Notes under the pieces: generated by a model
What the model saw: the letters and a program-made list of their open reading frames with translations, nothing else
What the model was told of the DNA's origin: nothing
The model's database searches: none
Made by a program: the position numbers and the translations under genes
Source of the DNA: an uncultured Bacteroidales bacterium
GTDB lineage: Bacteria > Bacteroidota > Bacteroidia > Bacteroidales > UBA11471
DNA: 64,000 nt
Direction: 5' to 3'
NCBI GenBank assembly: GCA_947593515.1
Contig: CANQDQ010000009.1
Span: 1 to 64,000 of the forward strand
Shown here: positions 40,361 through 48,134 of the stretch, in pieces
Numbering within the stretch: the stretch's first letter is position 1
How the letters are laid out: every line of letters begins with the position of its first letter

Positions 40361-41188
40361 CTAACCCGGAAATTTGGGGAATTTGCTGAAATCGGGTTCG
40401 CGCTTTTCAAGGAAAGCATTTTTGCCCTCCTGCGCTTCGTCCATGAGATAGAACATGAGGGTGGCATCGCCTGCCAGTTCCATAAGTCCGTGCTGTCCGT
40501 CGAGTTCGGCGTTCAACGCCCGCTTTATCATGCGTATCGCCATAGGGCTTCGGCGCTGTATGGTCTTGCACCACTCCACCGTTTCGTCTTCGAGGCATTC
40601 GAGCGGCACGACTTTATTGACAAGTCCCATCGCCTCGGCTTCATGCGCCGAGTACTGCCGGCAGAGGAACCATATCTCCCGTGCCTTTTTCTGTCCGACG
40701 CAGCGCGCCAGATACGAGGAGCCGAAGCCGCCGTCGAAACTCCCGACCTTGGGACCCGCCTGTCCGAAGCGGGCGTTTTCGGAAGCGATAGTCAGGTCGC
40801 ACACCACGTGCAGCACGTGTCCGCCGCCTATGGCATAGCCATTGACCATAGCGATGACGGGCTTGGGCAGCGAGCGTATCGCCTTGTGCAGGTCGAGCAC
40901 ATTGAGGCGCGGCACGCCGGCTTCATCGAGGTAACCGCCCGCACCTTTCACCCGCTGGTCGCCGCCCGAACAAAACGCCTTGTCGCCGGCGCCCGTGAGC
41001 ACGACCACGCTTATGTCCGCCCGTTCGCGGCAGACAGACATGGCGTCGAGCATCTCGACGTTGGTCTGCGGTCGGAACGCATTATACACTTCCGGTCGGT
41101 TTATCGTGATTTTGGCGATGCCCTCGAACCACTCGAACCGGATATCTTCATACTCCTTTATCGGAGTCCACACCCGTGTTGCTGCCAT
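40361..41188 (-). CDS. menB: 1,4-Dihydroxy-2-naphthoyl-CoA synthase
   Basis: The 275-residue crotonase-fold protein has the MenB signatures [26 protein letters not shown] and [39 protein letters not shown], and a C-terminal FSKFPKFPG. It closes the naphthoquinone ring from succinylbenzoyl-CoA. It leads the menB-menC-menE operon, separated from menF-menD by the trp operon. A promoter, a small ORF and a terminator-like hairpin lie in its leader. Confidence 0.96.
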
Positions 41189-41290
41189 ATTCGTAAATTT
41201 ATTTAGCGTTTGTCGGGAAAAATTCCAGCGGTTAAAGATACGGTTTCTCCGCCGAATAATCGGCTTTCACACCGAAAAATATCTTCACCG

Positions 41291-41321
41291 CAAAAAACAA
41301 ATGCCGGATTCGCACCCGGCA
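41291..41321 (-). terminator. Terminator-like hairpin in the menB leader
   Basis: On the minus strand TGCCGG (41321-41316) pairs with CCGGCA (41307-41302) around an 8-base loop; two G-U pairs could extend the stem. TTTGTTTTTTG follows. It lies about 60 bases after the predicted transcription start and about 100 bases before menB. It could be an attenuator, or the 3' end of a free small RNA of about 90 nt. Confidence 0.6.
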
Positions 41322-41326
41322 CCGTT

Positions 41327-41368
41327 TCACACACATATTATTAAAACCCAAATCCTATTATGCTGCAT
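41327..41368 (-). CDS. Possible 13-residue leader peptide upstream of menB
   Basis: ATG 41368-41366 opens a short frame MQHNRIWVLIICV ending at TGA 41329-41327, just before the terminator-like hairpin and about 14 bases after the predicted start of transcription. The position mirrors the trp leader peptide on the other side of the same intergenic region. It has one Trp codon but no run of identical residues, so the sensed signal is unclear. Whether it is translated is unknown. Confidence 0.35.
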   Translation of the reverse strand: MQHNRIWVLIICV

Positions 41369-41387
41369 GATTTTTTTCTGTACAGTG

Positions 41388-41419
41388 CAAAGATAGGGCG
41401 ACTTCCGCGCACCGGCAAT
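41388..41419 (-). promoter_or_regulatory. Promoter of the menBCE operon
   Basis: On the minus strand TATCTTTG (41395-41388) is preceded, after 20 bases, by ATTG (41419-41416). This matches the Bacteroidota promoter pattern and would start transcription near 41381, giving a leader of about 190 bases. Confidence 0.6.
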
Positions 41420-41578
41420 ACCGAAATGTTATGATTTATACCCCGCCTGCTCCCCATTATTATGTAGAAAACCGAAAAAATCGGGCGAACGATAGCAAAA
41501 ACAAAATCTTTTCCGACGGGTGAAATTCGGAATTTCAGAACAAAAACAAGAATTTTGTAAAAAAATCGGGATTATTTA
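41419..41578. promoter_or_regulatory. Region between the divergent men and trp promoters, with a 17-bp palindrome
   Basis: This 160-base spacer contains no ORF of note. TGAAATTCGGAATTTCA at 41521-41537 is a perfect 8+1+8 palindrome, 41 bases upstream of the trp -33 element and about 100 bases upstream of the men -33 element. It is a candidate operator or activator site. Confidence 0.5.
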
Positions 41579-41608
41579 TTGCATTTATCTGTTTTATGCG
41601 TATATTTG
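41578..41608 (+). promoter_or_regulatory. Promoter of the trp operon
   Basis: ATTG at 41578-41581 and TATATTTG at 41601-41608 are separated by 19 bases and match the Bacteroidota consensus. Transcription should begin near 41614, about 14 bases before the leader peptide start. Confidence 0.7.
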
Positions 41609-41627
41609 CAGCAGAAAAGTAAATGCG

Positions 41628-41690
41628 ATGACAACGAATACACAACATAACTTTTGGTGGTGGCGCTACTTACAACGTAAAATGTCGTAA
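41628..41690 (+). CDS. trpL: trp operon leader peptide
   Basis: ATG 41628 opens a 20-residue frame, MTTNTQHNFWWWRYLQRKMS, ending at TAA 41688-41690. Three consecutive TGG codons occupy 41655-41663. This is the layout of a ribosome-stalling leader peptide: when charged tRNA-Trp is scarce, ribosomes stall on the TGG run. It lies between the trp promoter and an intrinsic terminator upstream of trpB. Confidence 0.85.
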   Translation: MTTNTQHNFWWWRYLQRKMS

Positions 41691-41754
41691 GAAGAGACGC
41701 CGCGTATATACATATCGAAAAGGCTTGTCGTTACTTACGGCAAGCCTTTTTCGA
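41669..41754 (+). terminator. trp attenuator (terminator with alternative pairings)
   Basis: The terminator arms are 41715-41730 (core GGCTTGTCG) and 41738-41754 (core CGGCAAGCC, then TTTTT), with loop TTACTTA. CTTAC at 41669-41673, just after the Trp codons, can pair with GTAAG at 41687-41691. Alternatively GTCGTAAG at 41684-41691 can pair with CTTACGGC at 41734-41741, which would open the terminator. A ribosome stalled at 41655-41663 would cover the first segment and favour the second pairing. The terminator is clear; the alternative pairings are inferred by eye. A candidate Rfam-type motif for Bacteroidota trp leaders has, as far as I recall, been proposed. Confidence 0.8.
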
Positions 41755-41792
41755 TGAAATAACCTTGATACAAATATTAAAAACGAAATAAA

Positions 41793-42977
41793 ATGAAAAC
41801 TTTTCACGTCGATGCCGACGGTTACTACGGAAATTTCGGGGGCGCATACATTCCCGAAATCCTGCACCGCTGCGTCGAAGAACTACAAAAAAACTACTTA
41901 GAGGTACTCGAAAGCGAATCGTTCAAACGGGAATACGACGAACTGCTGCGCAATTACGTGGGACGCCCCTCGCCGCTCTATTTGGCAAAACGGCTGTCGG
42001 AGAAATACGGCTGCAAAATCTACTTGAAACGGGAAGACCTCAACCATACGGGTGCCCACAAAATCAACAACACGATAGGGCAGATACTGCTCGCCCGCCG
42101 CATGGGCAAAACCCGCATCATCGCCGAAACGGGAGCCGGTCAGCACGGCGTGGCTACGGCTACGGTGTGCGCCCTGATGAACATGGAATGCGTGGTGTAT
42201 ATGGGAAAAACCGACGTGGAACGACAGCACATCAACGTAGAGAAAATGCGTATGCTGGGGGCGGAAGTACGTCCCGTAACGTCGGGCAACATGACCCTCA
42301 AAGATGCGACCAACGAGGCAATACGCGACTGGTGCTGCCACCCTACCGACACCTATTATATCATCGGTTCGACAGTGGGACCGCACCCCTACCCCGATAT
42401 GGTAGCCCGTCTGCAATCGGTCATCAGCGAAGAGATACGCCGGCAGCTGCAAGAGCAGGAAGGCCGCGACTACCCCGACTACCTGATGGCTTGCGTGGGC
42501 GGCGGCAGCAACGCGGCGGGTACGATATATCATTACGTTGATGACGAACGGGTGAAAATCGTGCTTGCCGAAGCCGGCGGTCTCGGCGTGGAGAGCGGCA
42601 AATCGGCGGCGACGATACAGCTGGGTCGCGAAGGCATCATACACGGCTCGCGCACGTTGGTGATACAGGACGAGGACGGGCAGATACAGGAGCCGTACTC
42701 CATTTCTGCCGGATTGGACTATCCGGGCATCGGTCCGATACACGCCAACCTCGCCCGCGAAAAACGGGCGGAAGTACTCGCCATCAACGACGACGAGGCG
42801 TTGGAAGCGGCTTATGAACTGACGCGTTTGGAGGGCATCATTCCCGCCCTCGAATCGGCTCACGCTCTGGGCGCTCTGCGCAAAATAGACTTCAAGCCCT
42901 CCGACGTGGTGGTACTCACCGTATCGGGACGCGGCGACAAAGACATTGAAACTTACCTGAAAAACATGCCACGATGA
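41793..42977 (+). CDS. trpB: Tryptophan synthase beta chain
   Basis: A 394-residue PLP enzyme with the catalytic Lys in [14 protein letters not shown], the ETGAGQHG motif and the phosphate-binding VGGGSNAAG loop. It joins indole (channelled from TrpA) with serine to give tryptophan. It is the first gene of the trpBEGDCFA operon, about 40 bases after the attenuator. Its last 4 bases overlap trpE. Confidence 0.97.
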
Positions 42978-44374
42978 AAACATTCCGCTACAAAGCCCTG
43001 CACAAACTTCTGCTCGGCGACCTGCATACGCCGGTGGGCACTTATCTGAAAGTACGGGATTACTTTTCCCAAAGCGCGCTGATGGAGAGTTCGGACTACC
43101 ACGGCGGCGAAAACAACCGCTCGTTCATCGGGCTGCACCCGCTCGCTTCGGTAAGCATCGGACACGGCACGGCGACGCTACGCTACCCCGACAACTCGAC
43201 GACGGAACACGCCATCGCCGCCGATTACCGCTGCGAAGACGCCATTACCGAATTTCTGCAATCGTTCGAGGTCGAGGGTGAATATAAAAACTATTGCGGT
43301 CTCTACGGCTACACTTCGTTCAACGCGGTGCGCTACTTCGAGAACATTCCGGTAAAAGACAGCCGCGACCCGTTCAACGATGCCCCCGATATGCTCTACA
43401 TTCTGTATAAATACATCATCGTATTCAACGACTTCAAGCACGAAATGGTGTTGATAGAAATGGTGCCGGAGGGGGAAGAAAGCCATATCGATTTTCTCGA
43501 AAAAGCGATAGCGAACCGGAATTTCACCTGCTACGACTTCCACGCCGTAGGCAAGGCATACAGCACACTCACCGACGAAGAACACAAAGCCAATATCCGG
43601 CGCGGCATCGCGCACTGCCTGCGGGGCGACGTGTTCCAAATCGTGCTGTCGCGGCGATTCGTGCAAGCCTATACGGGCGACGATTTCAAACTCTACCGCG
43701 CTCTGCGCAGTATCAATCCGTCGCCCTACCTTTTCTATTTCGACTTCGGCGGATTCCGCATATTCGGCTCTTCACCCGAAACGCACTGCCGCATCGAAAA
43801 CGGCCGTGCCTACATCGACCCGATAGCCGGCACGACCCGACGGACAGGCGACAACGAAAAAGACGCCGCACTGGCTGCCGCCCTGCTTGCCGACCCCAAA
43901 GAGAACGCCGAACACGTGATGCTCGTCGACCTTGCCCGCAACGACCTGAGCCGCAACTGCCACGACGTGAAGGTAGAATTTTACAAAGAGACGCAGTATT
44001 ACAGCCACGTAATCCACCTCGTCAGCCGCGTCAGCGGACGGTTGAACGACGATGCCAACCCCATAAAGGCTTTCATCGACACTTTCCCCGCCGGCACCCT
44101 GTCGGGGGCGCCCAAAGTGCGGGCAATGCAGCTCATCAGCGAATACGAGCCGCACAATCGTGGCGCATACGGCGGGTGCATCGGATTCATCGGTCTGAAC
44201 GGCAACCTCAACCAAGCCATCACCATACGCACTTTCGTAAGCCGCAACAACGAATTGTGGTTCCAAGCCGGCGGCGGCATCGTAGCCCAAAGCAGCGAGG
44301 AATACGAATTGCAAGAGGTAAACAACAAACTCGGCGCCCTGCGCAAAGCCATCGACATAGCCGAACAACTCTAA
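42974..44374 (+). CDS. trpE: Anthranilate synthase component I
   Basis: The 466-residue product has an N-terminal domain with [20 protein letters not shown], where the LLES-type motif contributes to tryptophan feedback inhibition. The chorismate-binding domain carries [45 protein letters not shown] and [15 protein letters not shown]. It turns chorismate and ammonia into anthranilate with TrpG. Its ATG overlaps the trpB TGA by 4 bases. Confidence 0.97.
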
Positions 44375-44386
44375 TTGCACCCTATT

Positions 44387-44956
44387 ATGAAAATCACTAT
44401 CATAGACAATTACGACTCGTTTACGTACAACCTCTTCCACATGGTAAGAGAAGCCGGTGCGGAAGTAACGGTAGTGCGCAACGACGCTTTCGACCTCGAC
44501 GACCTCGAAGCCTGCGACAAAATCATACTCTCGCCCGGTCCGGGCATTCCGTCGGAAGCCGGTCTGCTGCTCGACACGATACGCCGGTATGCCGGACGCA
44601 AACCCATACTCGGCGTGTGTCTCGGACATCAGGCGATAGGCGAAGTATTCGGCGGCAAACTCGTGAATCTGAGCCGCGTGTATCACGGCGTGCAAACGCC
44701 GATAAAACTGCTTGGCAACGACTATCTTTTCGAGGGTCTCGACAGCAGCATCGCCGTAGGTCGCTACCACTCGTGGGTGGTCGATGCCGACAGCCTGCCC
44801 GACTGTCTCGAAATCACCGCCCGCAGTGAAGAAGGGCTTGTCATGGCGCTGCGCCACAAGACGTTCGATATTCACGGCATACAGTTCCACCCCGAATCGG
44901 TATTGACGCCGCAGGGAAAAATCATCATGGAAAACTTCTTAAAAGCAAACGTATGA
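44387..44956 (+). CDS. trpG: Anthranilate synthase component II (glutamine amidotransferase)
   Basis: A 189-residue class I amidotransferase starting MKITIIDNYDSFTYNL at ATG 44387; the four codons upstream begin at a TTG next to the trpE stop. The triad is the Cys of LGVCLGHQAIGE and the His and Glu of IQFHPESVLTPQG. It supplies ammonia to TrpE. It overlaps trpD by 4 bases. Confidence 0.96.
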   Translation: MKITIIDNYDSFTYNLFHMVREAGAEVTVVRNDAFDLDDLEACDKIILSPGPGIPSEAGLLLDTIRRYAGRKPILGVCLGHQAIGEVFGGKLVNLSRVYHGVQTPIKLLGNDYLFEGLDSSIAVGRYHSWVVDADSLPDCLEITARSEEGLVMALRHKTFDIHGIQFHPESVLTPQGKIIMENFLKANV

Positions 44957-45948
44957 AAAAGATTCTGACACGGCTTTTCAATCACGAAATACTCTCCCGA
45001 CAAGAGGCGGAAAAAATCATGTCGGATATGACGCGCGGCGTCTATAACGAAGTGCAAACAGCCGCGCTGCTCACCGTTTACAAAATGCGCTCCCCGTCGG
45101 TAGAAGAGCTTATCGGGTTCCGCAACTCCCTGCTGGAAAGCCGCATACGCATAGATTTAAGCGACTACAACGCTATTGACATCGTGGGGACGGGCGGCGA
45201 CGGGAAAAACACGTTCAATATTTCGACCTGCGCCTGTTTCGTGGTGGCGGGTGCCGGCTACCGCGTGGCAAAACACGGCAACTACGGCGCCACCTCCGTG
45301 AGCGGTGCGAGCAACGTCATGGAACAGCACGGCGTGAAATTCACCAACGACGAAAGCCGGCTGCGCCGCTCGATTGAAGGGTGCGGCATGGCATACCTGC
45401 ACACCCCGCTTTTCAATCCGGCAATGAAAGCGGTCGCCCCCGTGCGCAAGGCGTTGCAGGTAAGCACGCTGTTCAACCTGCTGGGTCCATTGGTCAATCC
45501 GTCGCTGCCGGCAAACCAGCTGCTTGGCGTCGCCAATCTCGAACTGTTGCGCCTCTACGCCCAGACGTTCCAGACATTAGGTATGGAATTTGCCGTCGTA
45601 ACCAGTTTAGACGGCTACGACGAAATATCGCTGACCGACTCGTTCAAAGTAATCATGAAACATTACGAGCGGATATACCGCCCCGACGAACTGGGCTTGC
45701 CGTCGATACGGCAGGAAGAACTCTTCGGCGGCAGCACACCCGAAGAAGCCGCCCGCATTTTCGACAACGTACTGACGGGAAAAGCCACCGTCTCGCAGAC
45801 GAACTGCGTTCTCATAAACGCCGCTTTCGCCATACAGATTTTGGAGCCGTCCAAGTCTATCGGCGAATGTTTGGAAACAGCCCGCGCATCGCTCGCCGGC
45901 GGAAAGGCTGCCGAAACCTTGAAAAAATTCATCGCCCTGAACAGTTAG
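44953..45948 (+). CDS. trpD: Anthranilate phosphoribosyltransferase
   Basis: The 331-residue product has the PRPP and Mg-binding motifs DIVGTGGDGKNTFNIST and HGNYGATSVSGASNVME and the anthranilate-site LFNPAMKAVAPVRK and NLLGPLVNP segments. It transfers phosphoribose to anthranilate. It is translationally coupled to trpG. Confidence 0.97.
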   Translation: MKKILTRLFNHEILSRQEAEKIMSDMTRGVYNEVQTAALLTVYKMRSPSVEELIGFRNSLLESRIRIDLSDYNAIDIVGTGGDGKNTFNISTCACFVVAGAGYRVAKHGNYGATSVSGASNVMEQHGVKFTNDESRLRRSIEGCGMAYLHTPLFNPAMKAVAPVRKALQVSTLFNLLGPLVNPSLPANQLLGVANLELLRLYAQTFQTLGMEFAVVTSLDGYDEISLTDSFKVIMKHYERIYRPDELGLPSIRQEELFGGSTPEEAARIFDNVLTGKATVSQTNCVLINAAFAIQILEPSKSIGECLETARASLAGGKAAETLKKFIALNS

Positions 45949-45953
45949 CCGCC

Positions 45954-46745
45954 ATGAAAGATATTTTAGACGAAATCATCGCCCGCAAACGGGAGGAAAT
46001 AGTGCAACAGAAACAGGCTGTAAACATAGAACTGCTGCGCGAAAACGCCAGGCAGAAAACGCAGGAACAGCGGAGTATGCGGGCAGCGCTGGCAGCATCG
46101 CCCTACGGCATCATTGCCGAATTTAAGCGCAAGTCGCCGTCGAAAGGGTGGATAAAAGAACTCGGTCGTGCCGACGAGATTCCCCCTTCGTATGAAGCCA
46201 ACGGCGCCGCCGCCCTCTCCATTCTCACCGATGCGCCGTTTTTCGGCGGCTCGCTGCACGACATCGCCGTTGCCCGTCCGCTTACGGGTCTGCCCGTACT
46301 GCGAAAAGATTTCATCATCGACGAATACCAGCTCTTTCAAGCCCGCATCGTGGGCGCCGACGCCGTGCTGCTCATCGCCGCCGCCCTGTCGCCGGAGGAG
46401 TGCCGGACGCTGGCGGAAGAGGCGCACCGGCTCGGCCTCGAAGTGCTGTTGGAAATACATCGGGAAAGCGAACTCGACTACGTGAACGAGCATATCGACA
46501 TGATAGGCGTAAACAACCGGAATTTGGGGAGCTTTCACACCGACGTGAAAAATTCGTTCCGGCTGGCAGAGAAGCTGCCTGCCGACCTCTTGAAAGTTTC
46601 GGAGAGCGGCATCTCCGACCCTGCGACGATAAAAGAGCTGCGGCAGGCGGGATTTCGCGGATTCCTCATCGGCGAGACTTTCATGAAAACCGAAAATCCG
46701 GGAGCGACGCTCCGTCAATTCATAAACGACCTGTCATGCTCGTAA
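45954..46745 (+). CDS. trpC: Indole-3-glycerol phosphate synthase
   Basis: The 263-residue TIM-barrel starts MKDILDEIIARKREEI at ATG 45954, 5 bases after the trpD stop. Family motifs are IIAEFKRKSPSKGWI, VLRKDFIIDEYQL, IGVNNRNLGSF and VSESGISDP. A longer open frame upstream lies inside trpD and is a shadow. It forms indole-glycerol phosphate from CdRP. Confidence 0.96.
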   Translation: MKDILDEIIARKREEIVQQKQAVNIELLRENARQKTQEQRSMRAALAASPYGIIAEFKRKSPSKGWIKELGRADEIPPSYEANGAAALSILTDAPFFGGSLHDIAVARPLTGLPVLRKDFIIDEYQLFQARIVGADAVLLIAAALSPEECRTLAEEAHRLGLEVLLEIHRESELDYVNEHIDMIGVNNRNLGSFHTDVKNSFRLAEKLPADLLKVSESGISDPATIKELRQAGFRGFLIGETFMKTENPGATLRQFINDLSCS

Positions 46746-47359
46746 AAGTGTGCGGTATGCGCGAGCCGGAAAACATTCGCGCCGCAGAGAAGTGCGACAT
46801 CGACCTGATGGGTTTTATCTTCGCCCCGCGCTCGCCCCGCTGCGTAACGCAAATGCCGTCTTATCTGCCGGAAAAGGTGCGGCGCATCGGCGTGTTCGTC
46901 GATGCCGACAAAGCGACGATAGAACATCGCATTGCCGACTACGGACTGTACGGCGTGCAGCTGCACGGACACGAATTGCCCGAACTTTGCCGCACGCTGC
47001 GCGCAAACGGCGTGAAAGTCATCAAGGCATTTCAGATGCAAGACCGGACGTCGGCAGCGCAATGCCGCGCCTACGAAAGCGTGTGCGACTGGTTTCTGTT
47101 CGACACGCCCTGCGCGACGGACGGCGGCTCGGGAAGAAAATTCGACTGGACGCTGTTGGAAAGCTATCGGGGCAGTACGCCATTTCTGCTGAGCGGCGGT
47201 CTGTCGCCCAACTGTCTGACAGAGCTGCGCGGATTTTCACACCCGCAATGGGCAGGCATCGACCTCAACAGCGGATTCGAAACCGCCCCTGCCTTAAAAG
47301 ACATCGACAAACTGCGAAACTTCATAACCCTATTCAGAAACGAAATAAAAAACAAATAA
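46736..47359 (+). CDS. trpF: Phosphoribosylanthranilate isomerase
   Basis: A 207-residue TIM barrel starting MLVKVCGMREPENIRAAEK, the TrpF signature with the catalytic Cys. The catalytic-Asp region is WFLFDTPCATDGGSGRKFDW, and LLSGGLSPNCL and GIDLNSGFE bind phosphate. Its start overlaps the trpC end by 10 bases. Confidence 0.96.
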   Translation: MLVKVCGMREPENIRAAEKCDIDLMGFIFAPRSPRCVTQMPSYLPEKVRRIGVFVDADKATIEHRIADYGLYGVQLHGHELPELCRTLRANGVKVIKAFQMQDRTSAAQCRAYESVCDWFLFDTPCATDGGSGRKFDWTLLESYRGSTPFLLSGGLSPNCLTELRGFSHPQWAGIDLNSGFETAPALKDIDKLRNFITLFRNEIKNK

Positions 47360-47360
47360 G

Positions 47361-48134
47361 ATGAATCGTATCAACCGACTTTTTCAAGAGAAGAAAAAAG
47401 AGATTCTCTCCATTTATTTTTGTGCCGGACACCCGACGTTCGACGGCACGTGCGAAGTCATCAAAACGCTCGAAGCCAAAGGCGTGGACATGATAGAGAT
47501 AGGCATACCGTTCAGCGACCCGATGGCAGACGGTCCCGTGATACAGGAGGCTGCCACCCGCGCCCTGCGCAACGGCATGACCCTGCGCAAATTGTTCGGA
47601 CAGCTTGCCGACATACGCAGCGACGTGCACATTCCGTTGATACTCATGGGGTATCTGAATCCGATTTTGCAATACGGATTCGAGGCATTCTGCCGCTCCT
47701 GCCAAGCGTGCGGCATCGACGGCATCATCGTTCCCGACCTGCCGTTCCGTGAATATATGGAAAATTACAAGGCGACCGCCGACCGCTACGACCTGCGGCT
47801 CATCATGCTTATCACGCCTGAAACGAGCGAGGAGCGCATACGCCTCATCGACGCGCATACCGACGGATTCATCTACATGGTGTCGTCGGCTGCCATCACC
47901 GGTGCCCAAAAAGATTTCAATGCCCAAAAGCTGGCGTATTTCAAACGCATCGAAGCGATGCAGCTGCGCAATCCCCGCATGATAGGATTCGGCATTTCCA
48001 ACCGGCAGACGCACGAAGCGGCTTGCGCCCACGCCGCCGGCGCCATCATCGGCAGCAAATTCGTATCGCTGTTGCAAGAGGAGGGCAATGCCGGACGCGC
48101 TATCGACCGACTTTTGCGAGCGCTCCGAGAATAG
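47361..48134 (+). CDS. trpA: Tryptophan synthase alpha chain
   Basis: The 257-residue product has GVDMIEIGIPFSDPMADGPVIQEAATRAL (catalytic Glu and Asp) and the phosphate-binding GFGISNRQTHEAACAHAAGAIIGSKFV. It cleaves indole-glycerol phosphate to indole. It is the last gene of the operon and runs convergently into the DUF5106 gene with only 3 bases between stops, so no terminator fits there. Confidence 0.96.
   Translation: MNRINRLFQEKKKEILSIYFCAGHPTFDGTCEVIKTLEAKGVDMIEIGIPFSDPMADGPVIQEAATRALRNGMTLRKLFGQLADIRSDVHIPLILMGYLNPILQYGFEAFCRSCQACGIDGIIVPDLPFREYMENYKATADRYDLRLIMLITPETSEERIRLIDAHTDGFIYMVSSAAITGAQKDFNAQKLAYFKRIEAMQLRNPRMIGFGISNRQTHEAACAHAAGAIIGSKFVSLLQEEGNAGRAIDRLLRALRE

Follow-up and report, generated by a model that had tools for sequence, protein, structure and literature searches.

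How does the bacterium control the trp operon found in this Bacteroidales contig, and can a short tryptophan-rich ORF in front of trpB account for that control? Proteobacteria provide the best-known cases of ribosome-mediated attenuation. In Escherichia coli, trpL encodes a leader peptide with adjacent Trp codons, its transcript forms mutually exclusive 1:2, 2:3, and 3:4 pairings, and the stop codon is placed so that a ribosome that has finished translation blocks the antiterminator; in the textbook arrangement, the 5' arm of the terminator alone is sequestered. In the window (the whole analyzed stretch of 64,000 nucleotides), the gene order 3' of the leader is trpB-E-G-D-C-F-A:

41793-42977, plus strand: trpB, the first structural gene (TIGR00263, 584.6 bits, above cut-off)
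42974-44374, plus strand: trpE (best match and operon context)
44387-44956, plus strand: trpG (passes the trpG/pabA subfamily cut-off)
44953-45948, plus strand: trpD (passes the NCBIfam cut-off)
45954-46745, plus strand: trpC (passes the NCBIfam cut-off)
46733-47359, plus strand: trpF (best match and operon context)
47361-48134, plus strand: trpA (passes the NCBIfam cut-off)

The upstream gene menB (40361-41188, minus strand, NCBIfam-supported) is oriented away from the trp leader, and the intergenic region (41189-41627) probably contains divergent promoters. Neither TrpR (PF01371) nor TRAP (PF02081) had a family match in the genome, with control searches giving matches; attenuation may therefore be the main Trp-specific control, and a repressor of another family could still take part. 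In a 99% complete genome of the same genus (G068), a trpD match is absent and the only TrpB-like protein is distant (34% identity). Compared to the full operon in the window's genome, this pattern indicates that the trp operon seems to have been lost within the genus.

The region in front of trpB contains the following elements:

41579-41608, plus strand: Bacteroidota-type promoter (TTG at 41579-41581; TAnnTTTG as TATATTTG at 41601-41608), read from the sequence
41628-41690, plus strand: leader peptide ORF MTTNTQHNFWWWRYLQRKMS (20 codons, TAA stop), from the translated ORF
41655-41663, plus strand: three Trp codons (TGG) in tandem, read from the sequence
41660-41703, plus strand: 1:2 hairpin (CTTAC/GTAAG, and GUGGCGC with GACGCCGC), from the minimum-energy fold and the ribosome scan
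41683-41691, plus strand: outer strand of the antiterminator, TGTCGTAAG, which holds the leader stop codon and pairs with 41734-41742 in folding
41693-41701, plus strand: inner strand of the antiterminator, AG.GACGCC, partner of positions 41722-41732 in the terminator 5' arm (folding and cross-species coupling)
41717-41752, plus strand: intrinsic terminator GAAAAGGCTTGTCGT-TACTT-ACGGCAAGCCTTTTTC, from the fold and stem covariation
41734-41742, plus strand: terminator loop and upper 3' arm, CTTACGGCA, predicted to be captured by the outer strand

Homologous loci were collected with a TrpB scan, the best 80 relatives of which are all Bacteroidales (81 loci with the window). Enough upstream sequence was available for 79 trpB loci, including the window, in a sample that is skewed to close TrpB relatives and contains some near-identical loci. 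Two or three adjacent Trp codons occur in a leader ORF, at a similar distance, in 78 of these 79 loci; the sole exception (L066, Massilibacteroides vaginae) yielded no such ORF in the 420 nt 5' of trpB. Three Trp codons are found in 48 of the 78 leaders and two in the other 30, in which the first codon is absent or substituted, so that the last two are common to all leaders. Many Phocaeicola leaders (L053, L056, L065, L079, and others) have Phe in place of the first Trp codon (FFWW/YFWW), and this fits the folding calculation described below, in which the final pair of Trp positions has the greatest weight. One leader (L054), whose motif ATCGTAAG was missed by the search pattern, was left out of the pairing, folding, alignment, and ribosome-scan tests. 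The window promoter has TTG about 19 nt 5' of the -7 motif TAnnTTTG, and this motif lies 22-48 nt 5' of the leader ATG in 77/78 homologous loci; a sigma-70 scan of the window did not flag the promoter at 41579-41608.

The isolated terminator hairpin has a free energy of -21 kcal/mol in the window and ends 40 nt 5' of the trpB start, and a terminator hairpin lies 3' of the leader in all 78 loci with a WW or WWW leader. In the alignment of 53 leaders (the window and 52 homologues), 99.8% of the cells of the 12-bp stem are paired, 9 of the 12 pairs show two-sided changes, and the covariation score is 0.530, compared to 0.233 +/- 0.014 for shuffled alignments and at most 0.179 for slid controls. 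A terminator scan of the window did not flag this hairpin. The RNA 41614-41760, whose folding had been suggested as a check, reaches -46.5 kcal/mol (z -5.88; 0/200 shuffles equally stable), and its minimum-energy fold consists of the terminator and the 1:2 hairpin. The latter pairs the Trp-codon region with a strand 3' of that region and forms when the Trp codons are free of ribosomes. The initial annotation had correctly named a promoter upstream of the leader, a 20-codon ORF with three TGG codons, and an intrinsic terminator before trpB. The consensus fold of the MAFFT alignment does not go beyond the terminator and a short inner piece of the 1:2 hairpin, because the segment after the stop codon fails to align base by base; the inner helix of the antiterminator was therefore assessed via pairing energies.

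In the folding calculations, the antiterminator is composed of two helices. The outer helix joins GTCGTAAG, which contains the leader stop codon, to CTTACGAC on the terminator loop and upper 3' arm, and the inner helix joins GACGCC (41696-41701) to GGC..GTC of the terminator 5' arm. This structure excludes both the 1:2 hairpin and the terminator, and a ribosome stalled on the Trp codons allows it to form. To follow this dependence, a ribosome was set on each leader codon and the RNA was masked from the 5' side, with the ribosome edge assumed to lie 12-13 nt past the first base of the A-site codon and the truncated RNA folded at equilibrium. In the window, the outer helix was complete (eight pairs) whenever one of the three Trp codons occupied the A site, and none of its pairs formed without a ribosome, with the ribosome at the stop codon, or with a stall 5' of codon -3 (open range: A-site codons -3 to +4, numbered relative to the last Trp codon). 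Across the 77 leaders, an outer helix of at least 5 pairs appeared in 90-92% when either of the last two Trp codons occupied the A site, in 31% with the codon before them, in 1% without a ribosome, and in 0% at the stop codon; weak opening was also seen in some leaders (23-27%) at codons 6-7 before the last Trp. In full-length RNA free of ribosomes, the terminator always formed (mean of 15.6 terminator pairs) and the antiterminator never did. The proposed attenuator is therefore borne out in simulation: a stall at the Trp codons leads to antitermination, and an absent ribosome or one at the stop codon leads to termination. Because a stall at codons +1 to +4 likewise opens the calculated switch, a shortage of Arg or Leu could contribute, and the sequence alone cannot prove Trp as the sole signal, given that these neighbouring codons open it too.

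With 6 nt of the terminator 3' arm out, freed RNA formed a mean of 15.4 antiterminator pairs compared to 0.2 terminator pairs (77 leaders), and the switch-over to the terminator came at 7-12 nt of the 3' arm; the window antiterminator (-18.0 kcal/mol) stays ahead until 10 nt of this arm have been transcribed. For the inner helix, cross-species evidence is available: the pairing energy of an inner strand is stronger with the 5' arm of the terminator from the same leader (-8.40 kcal/mol) than with the arms of other species (-7.45 kcal/mol), a coupling with a permutation p of 0.0004 (n=58) in a test that ignores sequence relatedness. Such coupling beyond permutation is confined to the inner strand, and the outer helix shows a single two-sided cell in the 53-row alignment, not above shuffles. 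Both observations would be expected from a classical three-segment geometry, in which the 5' arm alone is sequestered and the match between GTCGTAAG and CTTACGAC is a by-product of the role of GTCGTAAG in the 1:2 hairpin; this alternative concerns the geometry of the antiterminator and not the identity of the attenuator. The outer helix is nearly invariant, and its scant covariation for that reason cannot prove the helix. Variation is unusually low in the terminator loop and upper 3' arm, which mostly interchange bases that still pair with GTCGTAAG, as at the positions that face its U residues (alignment columns 174 and 177), where only A and G alternate and the pairing with U is kept. In 8/53 rows the pair at columns 85/172 is disrupted, which counts against the outer helix; in one leader (L084) it changes on both sides from A-U to G-C, with the leader stop changing from TAA to TAG. 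When the RNA from the ribosome edge up to the terminator was shuffled, the outer helix formed in 8% of cases compared to 94% in real leaders, in which it dominates the folding of freed RNA (for the window leader alone, 2.2-2.7% of shuffles perform equally). The low variation of the loop and upper 3' arm, the two-sided change in L084, and the contrast of 94% with 8% argue against the three-segment geometry, which we regard as a rather unlikely description of the leader. On balance, we lean towards a two-part antiterminator in Bacteroidales, in which GTCGTAAG, a copy of the inner 5' arm of the terminator that includes the leader stop codon, would capture the terminator loop and upper 3' arm once the inner helix has pinned the 5' arm. 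The initial annotation had described complementary segments 1:2 and 2:3; the former stands as described, and the latter was under-described, given that the antiterminator comprises two helices that reach the terminator loop and 3' arm. A leader from Phocaeicola coprocola (L038:2309-2471) carries one additional base between the Trp codons and GTCGTAAG, either a sequencing error or a real variant, that would shift the leader frame and move the stop about 30 nt further 3', so that a ribosome would not halt inside GTCGTAAG.

The behavior of ribosome-free RNA, in which the terminator always forms, would also suit a strong terminator that acts as a fixed damper or as an end for upstream transcription, with the short ORF being decorative. 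This explanation is very improbable because conservation extends to the Trp codons, to how far they lie from the terminator, and to the inner-strand coupling, and because menB, the gene upstream, points away from the terminator. Least probable of all is attenuation sensed by a protein or a tRNA with an incidental ORF, even though TRAP, TrpR, and T-box systems govern trp genes in other phyla, since the genome has no TrpR or TRAP family match, the window has no T-box match at the gathering threshold, and the Trp codons are conserved within the translated frame.

We conclude that trpBEGDCFA is, with little doubt, controlled by ribosome-mediated transcription attenuation, as the initial annotation had proposed for a leader with a Trp-Trp-Trp peptide. 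The parts lie in order; Bacteroidales retain the peptide, the terminator, and the competing structures before trpB; and terminator covariation, inner-strand coupling, and the codon-dependent switch in folding point in the same direction. In the model that we infer, RNA polymerase would start at about 41613-41616, and a ribosome would then translate the leader. With plentiful Trp-tRNA, this ribosome would reach the stop codon inside GTCGTAAG, where its presumed footprint would cover the antiterminator strands, so that the terminator (41717-41752) would form and transcription would halt before trpB. With scarce Trp-tRNA, it would wait at the TGG codons and mask the 1:2 hairpin on its 5' side. 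The strand released in this way would presumably use GACGCC to pair first with GGC..GTC of the terminator 5' arm, and the helix would zip outward until TGTCGTAAG captures CTTACGGCA, leaving RNA polymerase to continue into trpB in vivo. If the inner helix is able to form first, as this presumed order has it, the antiterminator would gain a head start. Without translation, the 1:2 hairpin and then the terminator would form.

The suspicion that a structured RNA family for Bacteroidota trp leaders is already catalogued proved right. The best Rfam match of the window, RF01692 ('Bacteroid-trp'), spans the full model (45.7 bits, E 3.1e-4, positions 1-131 of 131), with both GUCGUAAG and the terminator 5' arm AAAAGGCUUGUC aligned, and is the only RF01692 match in the whole genome. 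The Rfam search thus identified the family over its full length, but with a score just under the gathering cut-off of 49 bits; at the gathering threshold, nothing in the window was reported, T-box included, and RF01692 surfaced in the E-value search only. A weak match to Thr_leader (26.5 compared to a cut-off of 55) was dismissed, as a Thr codon run is absent and the operon is trp. Among 20 orthologous leaders tested, 12 reached the RF01692 cut-off and 8, which also precede trpB, missed it, implying that the cut-off is stricter than orthology; the orthology of the window leader therefore rests on position, peptide, and alignment. Judged by these, it is a divergent member of the catalogued family, with standard logic. 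RF01692 is listed as a cis-regulatory RNA of Bacteroidetes in Weinberg et al. 2010 (PMC2864571). Like the family, the window leader lies directly 5' of trp genes in Bacteroidota and has a Trp-codon leader ORF and a 1:2 hairpin. The RF01692 model ends in the terminator 5' arm, where the window leader aligns in the same way, and its structure line contains the 1:2 hairpin alone, whereas the antiterminator and terminator hairpin seen in the window leader lie outside the model. A Bacteroid-trp element is reported to be conserved 5' of the trp operon of Flavobacterium psychrophilum, for which starvation control was proposed (PMC6414381); the passage concerned, in a paper on an elastase, mentions the element as an annotation, without an attenuator test. 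In the literature searched, experimental tests of trp attenuators from Bacteroidota did not come up.

The likeness to the classical enterobacterial system holds for the logic of the switch. Adjacent Trp codons, exclusive pairings, and stop-codon placement are shared with the E. coli trp attenuator, and in this respect the comparison drawn in the initial annotation was apt. The antiterminator geometry differs in detail: in the window it is predicted to take the terminator loop and upper 3' arm as well. Compared to E. coli, the window operon also starts with trpB, and TrpR was not found in the window's genome. The antiterminator geometry is the sole fresh element of the window system. Conservation of the leader across Bacteroidales, including common gut species, provides a concrete switching model, with exact bases, for the Bacteroid-trp leader, and the Rfam RF01692 cut-off leaves out a considerable fraction of genuine leaders.
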